The notes below the pieces were generated by a model, which made no database searches, had not been told where the DNA came from, and saw only the letters and a program-made list of their open reading frames with translations. A program made the position numbers and the translations under genes. Positions 1,680 to 25,429 of a stretch of 28,039 nucleotides of DNA are shown in pieces (positions within the stretch are counted from its first letter, which is position 1; every line of letters begins with the position of its first letter). Origin of the DNA: a virus. Location: the IMG/VR virus record IMGVR_UViG_3300032282_000772, positions 1-28,039 of that record, one strand, 5' to 3'.

Positions 1680-2260
1680 TTACCCAATATGTCATTAGTA
1701 CATATGTGATATATCTGTGAGTAGGTGTTAGATGTAAACATCTAACTGATCCGTCGCTGTCGCTCCGTCTCAATTTCTCTTCTTCGAATTTCTATTAAAA
1801 GTCATTTAATAGATGCTGATGGCTTGAATGAATGCACCTATATACCGCTACGCGGTTAAAATGCAATCGATTCTGGTGGAATCACTCGTGCAGTAAGCTT
1901 ATTTGGTTGTGCTGTAGATTCATGTGTTAGGCTCTGACCCATACCTTACTTACGTCGATTTTTAAGATTTACTCTCAGGTGCATTAGTGTAAATCATAAC
2001 ATGATGGTCACCACGGACTATGTCCTTGGTAGTCTACAGACTGTTTAATAGGATCTATGTCCTAAACCATTTCCGATAGAAGAAAGCAGTGGCATACTGG
2101 GTATGTTTGCTTTAAGGCATTCGCCGAATCGAGTTAATTCATTGAGTAGTCTTCTAAAGTCACTTTATAGCGAAGTGATTTGGTTGCCGTCACACTTCAG
2201 AACGGATTCACCAACAGTATTATGATCGGCCTGTCAACCTTAAGCTATATGATTATGTGT
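1680..2260 (-). ncRNA. Candidate large structured non-coding RNA (about 580 nt)
   Basis: No convincing reading frame exists here. On the minus strand the region is a chain of local stem-loops: 2160-2178 (TCACTT/AAGTGA), 2083-2113 (AAAGCA/TGCTTT enclosing CATAC/GTATG), 2043-2067 (TAGGA/TCCTA), 2031-2042 (AGTC/GACT), 2010-2030 (ACCA.GGAC with GTCC.TGGT, one mismatch), 1966-1995 (GATTTAC/GTAAATC), 1869-1883 (GATTC/GAATC), 1844-1856 (ACCGC/GCGGT), 1791-1813 (TCTATTAAA/TTTAATAGA) and 1727-1746 (GTTAGATG/CATCTAAC, loop TTTA). It begins just below a class L box after a terminator, so it would have its own transcript. Size and setting recall ornate phage RNAs such as ROOL or GOLLD, but I cannot match a consensus. 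The 3' end is uncertain. Strand is inferred from promoter and gene direction. Confidence 0.6.
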
Positions 2261-3150: not shown

Positions 3151-5955
3151 TTAACCGCCGTTGCGTGTTTTTACAGCAAATATGCTGAAGTTGCGACTTG
3201 CTGCCAAGTTAGTGAATACATAACTTCCCGCAGTAAAATCCATACTTACATAATCTTCAATGCCCACTGAACTATCTGGACCCACTGTCACTGTTTTGCT
3301 TAATCCACGAGCATATTGATTTGTGTCAGCATACATCATAGCAACACCTGATCCAGCCAAGAACTTATAGACGAATCCATCATATAAGTCATTGATTAGG
3401 ATGTCACCGCTGAAGTTGGCAAATGTGATTGTGTCATTTGTTGCCAGTGTGACAACTTTGCTATCACTGGCATCAAAGGTGTAATTTGTAGTGTCACTCA
3501 AATCTACCACTGGCAGTGTAATTGTGCCATTGTAGTTTAATGTTAGTTGATGATCAGTATATGTGTCAGTGCCATAGTCATAATTATCAACACCAATACT
3601 AATGCCTTCATCATTGGTTGTTATAATTCTACCACCACGATATATGGTTTCGTTGTCATCATACTCTGTGGCAATGCGAACGACACCACCGTCATTTGTT
3701 GTTAATCCAACACCATTGGGATAAGCGTTGCCTAAAATACCATTGGCTAGGATAACATTACCTTGACGGCTGATAGCAACATCTTTGTTAACACCACTGG
3801 GGTTCTTCATTGAGAATAAGATTGATCCACCATTGTTGAGATTCTCAATCTTCATGTCATTGGCGTTGGCAACTAACCCGCTTAGAGCGCGATCACCATT
3901 GTTTAGTCCAATTGAGACAGATTGTATAGTTGCTGTTTGATTAAATGTCCAGCCCTGTTCATTGGCAATCACAGTGTCTATGCTGTTGTTCTTAAAGCGT
4001 AAGTCACCATCACCCCAACTGAACATACCAGTGTCTTGACTGCCATCATTCTTAAAGGAATAACCACCACTACCGCCATACCAACCAGCACGGAAGCCAG
4101 TCATTGAAGCAGTATAACCTTCACCACCATCTAAATTGCCTGTTAAGTGAATGCCAGTATTATCTACGCTTAATGATTTTGTTTCATCTGGACTTGCTAA
4201 TGATACGTTAGGTGTGCCTTGATTTGTCACACGAAGCTTACCACTGCTAGAGGAATCACCACTAGCGCAGATAGTAAATGTACTCGATCCTTGACTGTTT
4301 AACTGCGGATTACCATCCATATTACCAATGTTATGGTAGTTTCCGTAGAATGTAGTTCCATTATTAGAAGTTTGTAGTTGTAGATTATAGTCGTTATCTC
4401 TGATTTCGAACTGACTACTGCGTAGATAGTTGGTAAATGTGTTTAAGTTAGCAATCTCGTAGGTCTGGCTTGGACCACTGAACATTTGAATACCAGCACC
4501 ATCACCACTACCAATAACAATGCTACCGCCAGGTCCATCATTGTCACTTGTTTGTAAAACTAGATTAGTATCGCCCTTACTTGTGATATAACCATAACCA
4601 CTGCCATCACCAACTTGTAGAACACTGGCTACATTTAAATAACCGCCACCTAAACCTGTGATTTGATTGACATCAATCTGACTGCTACCAGCACCATCAC
4701 CAATGATAAGACCTTGGTCACCATTGATCCTAACAGCACTATCACCCGCATACATTAAAATATCATTGTATTGTGGATTTGAAATAATGGCTGAATTGGT
4801 AAATTTTATTTTTTCTACAGTTGCAGTTGTTGCTGATAATGTTGGTACAGTAAATACACCGTTTGTAGCAAAATTAGCTTCATAATAAACATCTTCCTCG
4901 GTGTTATAATTATATGTATCAACAACCCACGAAATTCCACTACTTGTAGTAATTGTTTGAAATGCGCTATGACCAAACAACCCATCATTAAATGCAGCAC
5001 TAACATTAACAGGTCCGCCATCGTGCGATGATAGTGAAACGCCATTAGGAAATGCGTTAAACAACGCACCTTGTTGTAGTATAACATGTCCTTGTCTGCT
5101 TATACCTACATTCTTTTGAACACCTTGTGAAGTTTTTACTGCAAAGAATAAACTACCGCCGTTGTTGGGTAGTTCTAACTTCATGTTATTGGCATTTACT
5201 GGCATAAAACCATTGCCAAAACTACGTGCAGTTGAACCAGTGTTTAATCCAATAGTTGCTTTCTGAACTGTGATTGTGGAATTAAATGTTGCCGTAGAAT
5301 TATATGTGGCACTATTAAACCACTGTGAAGGACTGTTAAACTGAACAAAATCTAGTTGATCATAGAACAATCTTACATTGCTACCGCCAGTGCCGTTGAT
5401 GTAGAACTGGTTGTCACTGCCAGGAGGGCTCTGTCCCCAGATTAATCTATATGTGCCTGTGCCAAATGACAGTGTTTTACCTACATCTAACAAATTAGTT
5501 GCAGTTAAATTAAAGTATGTAGAAGTAGATGATCCACCACCTCCACCAGTGTAAGCAGTTAATTGTGTTGTACTATCTGGGAATGTAATACTACCATCAG
5601 CATTAAATTGCCAATAACTACTACCAGCATCAATTCTAACCTTGCCTGCGGCGTCGACATTAAATAATTCTACAGCACTACCACCAGCGGCGTTTGAGTC
5701 ACTGGGAATATACAAACCAGTATTGCCATCTTGTGGACTGATATAGATATCACCTGTACCAGTATTGCGAATCCATGTGCCTTGAAAACCAATATCACCT
5801 GTGTTTGCAGCACCGCCAGAAACTTCAATACCACCTGGAGTAATTCCATCACCTACATATAGTACATGAGTATCAGTAGTCCATACTGGTTCGCCTTCAG
5901 CGAATGTTGTTGTTGCTCTGTCAGCGTCTAAGCCTCTGCGTAATTGTAAACTCAT
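3151..5955 (-). CDS. Large tail fibre protein with duplicated module
   Basis: The 934-residue protein begins MSLQLRRGLDADR, and residues 1-45 (through EGEPVWTTDTHVLYVGDG) are the N-terminal module typical of marine phage fibres. The rest is low-complexity beta-rich sequence with many G, N, S, T residues and motifs such as NADGSITFPDSTTQLTA (about 118-134). A module of about 145 residues occurs twice, at about 227-373 and 674-818, sharing NNGGS, ISRQG(H/N)VIL and PNGV. The last 100 residues look like a compact beta domain. It probably forms a trimeric fibre that meets the cell surface; the receptor is unknown. A ribosome-binding site AAGGAA precedes the ATG. No chaperone or enzyme domain is seen. 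Confidence 0.85.
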   Translation of the reverse strand: MSLQLRRGLDADRATTTFAEGEPVWTTDTHVLYVGDGITPGGIEVSGGAANTGDIGFQGTWIRNTGTGDIYISPQDGNTGLYIPSDSNAAGGSAVELFNVDAAGKVRIDAGSSYWQFNADGSITFPDSTTQLTAYTGGGGGSSTSTYFNLTATNLLDVGKTLSFGTGTYRLIWGQSPPGSDNQFYINGTGGSNVRLFYDQLDFVQFNSPSQWFNSATYNSTATFNSTITVQKATIGLNTGSTARSFGNGFMPVNANNMKLELPNNGGSLFFAVKTSQGVQKNVGISRQGHVILQQGALFNAFPNGVSLSSHDGGPVNVSAAFNDGLFGHSAFQTITTSSGISWVVDTYNYNTEEDVYYEANFATNGVFTVPTLSATTATVEKIKFTNSAIISNPQYNDILMYAGDSAVRINGDQGLIIGDGAGSSQIDVNQITGLGGGYLNVASVLQVGDGSGYGYITSKGDTNLVLQTSDNDGPGGSIVIGSGDGAGIQMFSGPSQTYEIANLNTFTNYLRSSQFEIRDNDYNLQLQTSNNGTTFYGNYHNIGNMDGNPQLNSQGSSTFTICASGDSSSSGKLRVTNQGTPNVSLASPDETKSLSVDNTGIHLTGNLDGGEGYTASMTGFRAGWYGGSGGYSFKNDGSQDTGMFSWGDGDLRFKNNSIDTVIANEQGWTFNQTATIQSVSIGLNNGDRALSGLVANANDMKIENLNNGGSILFSMKNPSGVNKDVAISRQGNVILANGILGNAYPNGVGLTTNDGGVVRIATEYDDNETIYRGGRIITTNDEGISIGVDNYDYGTDTYTDHQLTLNYNGTITLPVVDLSDTTNYTFDASDSKVVTLATNDTITFANFSGDILINDLYDGFVYKFLAGSGVAMMYADTNQYARGLSKTVTVGPDSSVGIEDYVSMDFTAGSYVFTNLAASRNFSIFAVKTRNGG
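3502..3936 (-). repeat. Fibre internal module, copy 2
   Basis: Codes for residues 674-818 of the large fibre. At the protein level it aligns over its length with 227-373 of the same protein (copy 1 at 4837-5277), for example IGLNNGD with IGLNTGS and AISRQGNVILANGI with GISRQGHVILQQGA. The DNA has diverged, so the duplication is old. Confidence 0.75.
4837..5277 (-). repeat. Fibre internal module, copy 1
   Basis: Codes for residues 227-373 of the large fibre; the partner is at 3502-3936. Shared signposts in order are IGLN, NNGGS, ISRQG, PNGV, then a segment with a Y/D-rich stretch (DTYNYNTEED versus DNYDYGTDTY) and a short strand leading to P-L or P-V. Confidence 0.75.
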
Positions 5956-24254: not shown

Positions 24255-24265
24255 TATTTATTATA
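24255..24265 (-). promoter_or_regulatory. Class L promoter before the terminase genes
   Basis: TATAAT (24260-24265) merges into AATAAATA (24255-24262), directly after the T-tract of the terminator. No -35 box is present at 16-18 bases. Predicted transcription starts near 24253, about 4 bases before the TerS ATG. Confidence 0.6.
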
Positions 24266-25370: not shown

Positions 25371-25429
25371 ATGTACAGCGGGATTGCTGTACATATATTT
25401 ATTATACACTAAAGTTAGTGTAATGTACA
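25371..25429 (-). promoter_or_regulatory. Class E promoter with 5'-terminal hairpin (copy 3)
   Basis: The -35 box TGTACA is at 25424-25429, the spacer is 17 bases and the -10 box TATAAT is at 25401-25406. A perfect 9-bp hairpin ATGTACAGC/GCTGTACAT with loop AATCCC lies at 25371-25394, its base 7 bases below the -10 box. Upstream is an A-tract (AAAAAACTG) shared with copy 4. An AATAAATA class L box overlaps the -10 box, so it may serve at both times. Confidence 0.88.

Follow-up and report, generated by a model that had tools for sequence, protein, structure and literature searches.

ROOL and GOLLD form RNA cages, whose structures are given in PMC12286853, and Polynucleobacter-1 RNA (Rfam RF01718) was marked by its authors as possibly cis-regulatory, by our own reading of the relevant column (Weinberg et al. 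2010, PMC2864571). We analyzed the whole IMG/VR record IMGVR_UViG_3300032282_000772 (28,039 bases; hereafter the window), in which a structured RNA lies on the minus strand. This RNA resembles ROOL and GOLLD in its size class, phage location, multiple pseudoknots and lack of a fixed protein partner, but shows no sequence or structure match to either, including the conserved 3′ region of GOLLD. Moreover, tRNA islands commonly lie close to ROOL and GOLLD, whereas tRNAs were present in the fetched DNA of only 2 of 36 loci here, and none was found in the window. Similarly, an HNH-like gene lies downstream of the window RNA as with HEARO (omega RNA); however, this neighbor is a 146-aa HNH-like protein rather than a large IscB or IsrB, and it is not conserved beside the RNA. 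Searching the Rfam families at E ≤ 10 against the window RNA returned nothing except a terminator-like match and other weak noise; ROOL, GOLLD, HEARO and group I/II introns (the RNA lies between two whole genes) were therefore rejected as its identity. The original prediction had raised a distant member of ROOL or GOLLD as one possibility, which was not borne out by this search or by the rarity of nearby tRNAs.

The long genes of the window are all on the minus strand and include those for terminase, portal, capsid, tape measure and tail proteins; the terminase shares 52% identity with that of pelagiphage HTVC111P. On the same strand, positions 3151–5955 encode a putative tail fibre of 934 aa whose N terminus carries an Mtd_N (major tropism determinant) domain. 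An 825-nt gap separates the minus-strand ORF at 2449–2745 from the HNH-like gene, also on the minus strand, and is three times larger than the second-largest gap (275 nt), confirming the gene-free stretch that had been read from the sequence. The sense strand of the gap has no open run longer than 39 codons, by which coding sequence was rejected as its identity; a conserved reading frame, named beforehand as evidence against an RNA, is thus absent. The terminator-like hairpin and promoter-like box expected ahead of the RNA were likewise recovered (Table 1). The promoter-like box TATAATAAATA occurs as four exact copies, all on the minus (gene) strand, which are candidate promoters of this phage; the two copies distant from the RNA are located at 24255–24265 and 25396–25406. 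Among the relatives, TATAAATA-like boxes were present upstream of the RNA at 36 of 89 loci, compared with 7.6% of background stretches, and the exact TATAAATA box was not enriched in the window. A search for an intrinsic terminator at the 3′ end of the window RNA gave none, a point against the reading favored below.

Table 1 Features of the RNA locus in the window (strand and supporting evidence).
Feature	Position	Strand	Evidence or remark
Intrinsic-terminator-like hairpin, end of upstream gene	2328–2359	−	
Promoter-like TATAATAAATA, just upstream of RNA	2262–2272	−	4 exact copies in window
Structured non-coding RNA, ~567 nt, 3′ end approximate	1690–2256	−	M1/M2 model homology; no ORF
M1, 5′ module common to whole superfamily	2083–2256	−	Leave-one-out model and covariation
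P1 pseudoknot, 5′ strand UAUAGC	2244–2249	−	Pairs with 2171–2166; double changes in 7/7 pairs
P1 pseudoknot, 3′ strand GCUAUA, within P4 loop	2166–2171	−	Double changes, swap test
P2 hairpin GACAG/CUGUU	2213–2235	−	97% of cells paired; double changes in 4/5 pairs
P3, outer GGU/ACC, inner CCGU/ACGG	2182–2212	−	P3a double changes
P3 loop, UCUGAAGUGUG in window	2201–2191	−	Usual family loop UCUGAUGUGUG
P4 hairpin UCACUU/AAGUGA, loop pairs with P1	2160–2178	−	91% paired; double changes in 5/5 pairs
M2 module, window-type RNAs only	1872–2012	−	R2 match and covariation
H7 helix UCAUGU/ACAUGA (2004–1999 with 1925–1920)	1920–2004	−	89.5% paired; double changes in 5/6 pairs
H6 hairpin GAUUUAC/GUAAAUC	1966–1995	−	99.2% paired; double changes in 6/6 pairs
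H8 pseudoknot GUAAG/CUUAC (1953–1949 with 1897–1893), crosses H7	1893–1953	−	
H9 AGG/CCU (mostly GGG/CCC elsewhere)	1929–1946	−	Covariation alignment
M3 region, hairpin (~1864–1833) and possible twin sites	1808–1875	−	Fold
Possible twin sites CAGAAUCGAUU and CAGCAUCUAUU	1875–1865 and 1818–1808	−	Not significant in window itself
Second promoter-like TATAATAAATA, before HNH-like gene	1646–1656	−	Exact copy
HNH-like endonuclease gene, 146 aa, 3′ of RNA	1183–1623	−	PHROG 3377 HNH endonuclease, E = 1e-19

Relatives of the RNA were sought by several routes. By blastn, the RNA had no match in 50,697 phage records and no homologue among cultured phages and plasmids (short AT-rich pieces only, E = 0.9), and no relatives were found with the neighboring proteins as queries. 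Homologues were reached through relatives of the terminase, within whose records a DNA search revealed two (E = 1.6e-30 and 1.5e-27), both on the terminase strand and 5–7 kb upstream of the terminase, a position equivalent to that of the RNA in the window, provided that the window is circularly permuted. Further loci were then collected with a 19-mer taken from the shared block, which matched at least 119 viral stretches and 57 bacterial stretches; by our own estimate about 30 of the latter are expected by chance, and these have no flanking similarity, whereas the genuine loci have a long flanking architecture in common. The homologues number over 150 loci, viral and bacterial, carried by many water-dwelling phages and by bacteria including Polynucleobacter, Limnohabitans and Loktanella, at one to three copies per genome. 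Their distribution is patchy, with the RNA present in 19 of 81 Polynucleobacter species and in 3 of 121 genomes from the family of one Loktanella carrier. The RNA is thus widespread and patchily inherited, in different phages and in small integrated islands.

We characterized the 5′ module, M1, in an alignment of 40 members containing the helices P1, P2, P3a, P3b, P4 and P5, of which P5 is weak in the window. The leave-one-out model R3, built from the other 39 members with the window excluded, found the M1 of the window with 117.8 bits (E = 5.7e-33), and a similar model, R1, run over 738 kb of control loci, gave no match at E ≤ 1. Standard pairs made up 89.5% of the M1 pairings, compared with 68.0 ± 0.9% when the 3′ letters were shuffled and 31–49% in slid-partner controls. 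Double-change cells numbered 265 versus 94 ± 9 in shuffles (0 of 500 shuffles reached this value), with changes on both sides in 24 of 29 pairs, and the P1 pseudoknot also stood out in an alignment-free swap test (13.98 versus 10.49 ± 0.29). P3b is invariant in the 40-member set because the search motif fixed it, and for the same reason most loci selected by the motif have the P3b loop in common; the proper evidence for homology is the common M1 architecture, not this loop. Among loci selected through the second module, M2, P3b stems vary (CCCA/UGGG, GCA/UGC) while the loop UCUGAUGUGUG is unchanged, except for a few with a different 11-nt loop in its place. This variant, UCUUACAGGUG, was seen in four loci (L275, L287, L283 and L288) and keeps UCU...GUG.

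M1 relates the window RNA to Polynucleobacter-1. Its helices correspond to the RF01718 consensus, with the 5′ hairpins in the same series, covariation, and invariant residues in common; P2, P3 with its UCUGAUGUGUG loop, P4 and P5 occur in identical order. T4-like viral relatives scored 38–74 bits against RF01718, whereas the window did not match at the gathering threshold (37 bits), nor at E ≤ 10 over 1600–2460, and none of the window-type members tested reached the threshold. Conversely, R1, built without the RF01718-matching loci, found those loci over its full length (1–163) at E values of 1e-6 to 1e-10, with about 31 bits of the R1 score coming from the selecting motif itself, as gauged from loci such as L115 that hold only the motif. 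The RF01718 model covers 141 nt, whereas the RNA gene here is ~500–600 nt; since in all branches 450–600 nt of non-coding sequence typically follow the motif, RF01718 looks like the 5′ part only and appears, from these sequence comparisons, to be the 5′ end of an RNA superfamily of ~500–600 nt. The window RNA appears to be an unrecognized branch of this superfamily that, unlike RF01718-type and bacterial-island-type RNAs, carries its own M2 module. What was previously known is a 141-base fragment of one branch; the full-length RNA, M2 and the phage branch of the window are outside the RF01718 model. The suggestion of a new class is only partly borne out, because the 5′ module is homologous to RF01718.

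M2, which many members carry about 190 nt farther downstream, consists of helices H6, H7 and H9 and the pseudoknot H8. The R2 model matched the M2 of the window with 104 bits (E ~1e-22), the window being inside its training set. In the first 17 members, aligned without model fitting, 60 double changes were counted versus 24 ± 4, and 40 distinct members in a model-fitted alignment gave 181 versus 54 ± 5 in shuffles, with 95.0% standard pairs versus 63.6 ± 1.4%. H8 was paired in 77% of alignment A3, with double changes in three pairs, and its pairing in the window was read from the sequence of the window itself. Both pseudoknots, P1 and H8, are supported by compensatory changes. A pattern based on M2 only retrieved 34 viral loci (contigs up to 354 kb), and M1 was present upstream in all the newly found loci but one, which was cut by the locus end; loci selected by the P2 region alone (L298, L299 and L304) in turn contained M2. 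This reciprocal finding indicates that M1 and M2 are parts of a single RNA.

Compensatory changes were found in every main helix of the homologues, by which chance hairpins were rejected. This covariation, conserved synteny and the lack of a reading frame all support the original prediction of an ornate, structured RNA, non-coding and about 580 nt long; its hairpins belong to the minus strand and are genuine, as covariation in M1 and M2 demonstrates, and its extent of 1680–2260 was corrected to approximately 2256–1690. The strand is fixed by the excess of G-U pairs over A-C juxtapositions in the family (83 versus 20). Folding energy by itself is weak and not decisive evidence for the window RNA: the 611-nt region gave z = −4.8 on the minus strand and −1.3 on the plus strand, the 500-nt core alone gave z = −1.9, and antisense scores equal sense scores in some relatives. 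The decisive evidence is comparative, from covariation and model detection. Conservation is lower over the last ~180 nt of the window RNA, where 1872–1690, including the M3 hairpin, folds with z = −3.9.

In 104 of 139 RNAs, the region near the 3′ end contains CTC-N6 followed 43–71 nt later by YCT-N6 with the identical six letters, the two sites flanking a G+C hairpin, a pattern essentially never reached in shuffled sequences. The distinct set includes 17 different units (e.g., AGCGAA, AGATAA and AGTGAA), and the two letters before the sites also tend to match (39% versus 11 ± 4%). Examples are seen at L098, L133, L140, L200, L216, L221 and L280, among about 100 others. The twin sites covary by identity, as direct repeats that are the same within each RNA and different between RNAs. 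No complement was found within the RNA (a perfect complement occurred in 4% of own RNAs versus 14% of others), and copies or complements elsewhere in the locus were not clearly enriched. Identity-type covariation without a complement suggests either a single partner that is bound twice or a role at the level of DNA. Though unlikely, the superfamily could be a novel type of mobile-element RNA, with two identical, lineage-specific recognition sites around a hairpin near the 3′ end and a fixed recognition loop near the 5′ end; if true, it would bind one variable trans partner twice, serving phages and minimal integrative islands as a symmetric adaptor or guide-like RNA.

The genes around the RNA differ between lineages. 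In T4-like viruses the RNA follows a SegE-type GIY-YIG gene, downstream of recombination genes that we take to be gp46/gp47-like from our own reading of the sequences; the SegE-type gene ends ~60 nt before the RNA motif at about 68 loci (L094–L211, T4-like subset). Bacterial copies adjoin DUF6641 genes and a short tyrosine recombinase. Small islands in Polynucleobacter, Limnohabitans and Rhodobacteraceae (L330, L331, L332 and L333; L221, L239, L241 and L227) contain a tyrosine recombinase of ~190 aa and DUF6641/DUF6876 genes, and inspection by eye of 20 kb around four bacterial copies revealed no obvious phage structural genes. The bacterial islands are possibly a minimal mobile element.

The window RNA (~2256–1690, minus strand) is probably a large structured phage RNA that is transcribed independently, acts in trans and would work as a scaffold or binding platform. 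It would be made from its own promoter-like box, between the terminator-like hairpin and the next gene; separate transcription is favored by this upstream hairpin and by the presence of TATAATAAATA before both the RNA and the next gene. The transcript may then fold compactly, as a particle containing two or more pseudoknots, and serve as a scaffold or binding platform during infection; contacts would be made through the conserved UCUGAUGUGUG loop and, for most relatives, also through the twin 3′ sites. Such a function could be likened to that of ROOL and GOLLD in kind rather than by descent, by analogy in size, pseudoknots and phage setting. The main rival to a scaffold or binding platform is a decoy or sponge, somewhat unlikely, that would titrate a factor of host or phage origin (a regulator, an RNase, a defence protein or another RNA) through the invariant P3b loop and the twin sites, with the remainder of the RNA as a stabilizing scaffold. 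The retention of the UCUGAUGUGUG loop while its stem covaries, in loci selected without the loop, is consistent with a decoy, as are the twin sites, which are identical in 104 of 139 RNAs (17 different units) and have no complement within the RNA and no clear enrichment of copies or complements elsewhere in the locus; the loop and the twin sites both point to trans partners. Covariation nevertheless extends over most of the RNA, beyond the need of a simple sponge.

The remaining explanations fare worse against the same observations. A cis-regulatory, riboswitch-like leader of the downstream gene would agree with the possibly cis-regulatory listing of RF01718 (as we read that column) and with the position of the window RNA upstream of the HNH-like gene in the same orientation, but the downstream gene is not conserved, which argues against leader function, the next gene is oppositely oriented at many bacterial copies, and a promoter-like box and RBS of its own precede the HNH-like gene; we consider a leader improbable. 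Recombination cores and protein-binding iterons show direct repeats that covary by identity, and the bacterial copies have a short tyrosine recombinase nearby, so a DNA-level element could be envisaged (a recombination site, or a replication or packaging locus, in which direct repeats surround an inverted repeat and the RNA is secondary). This is highly improbable, considering that the covariation of M1 and M2, with pseudoknots and G-U bias, is of the RNA type, and that T4-like carriers have no adjoining recombinase. Finally, the HNH-like gene downstream in the window and the SegE-type GIY-YIG gene upstream in most T4-like relatives would fit a divergent group I/II intron or a ribozyme linked to a homing endonuclease, which is scarcely credible given that no Rfam intron model matched at E ≤ 10, that the RNA interrupts no gene and that its neighbors vary between lineages.

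With a scaffold or binding platform as the preferred reading, the superfamily represents a further widespread class of large ornate phage RNA, described by full comparative models, of which RF01718, to which little attention has been paid since 2010, appears to be a fragment. The RNA is placed in bacterial genomes, some from cultured isolates, making deletion and assay possible, and the covarying twin sites make a concrete, testable claim of a trans partner.

The motif search also recovered ten viral contigs (L115, L116, L123, L145 and L146, and likewise L156, L180, L183, L191 and L193) that contain the exact CCGTTCTGATGTGTGACGG hairpin, with the rest of M1 absent; this hairpin either arose by chance within one lineage or belongs to a different RNA with the same hairpin.
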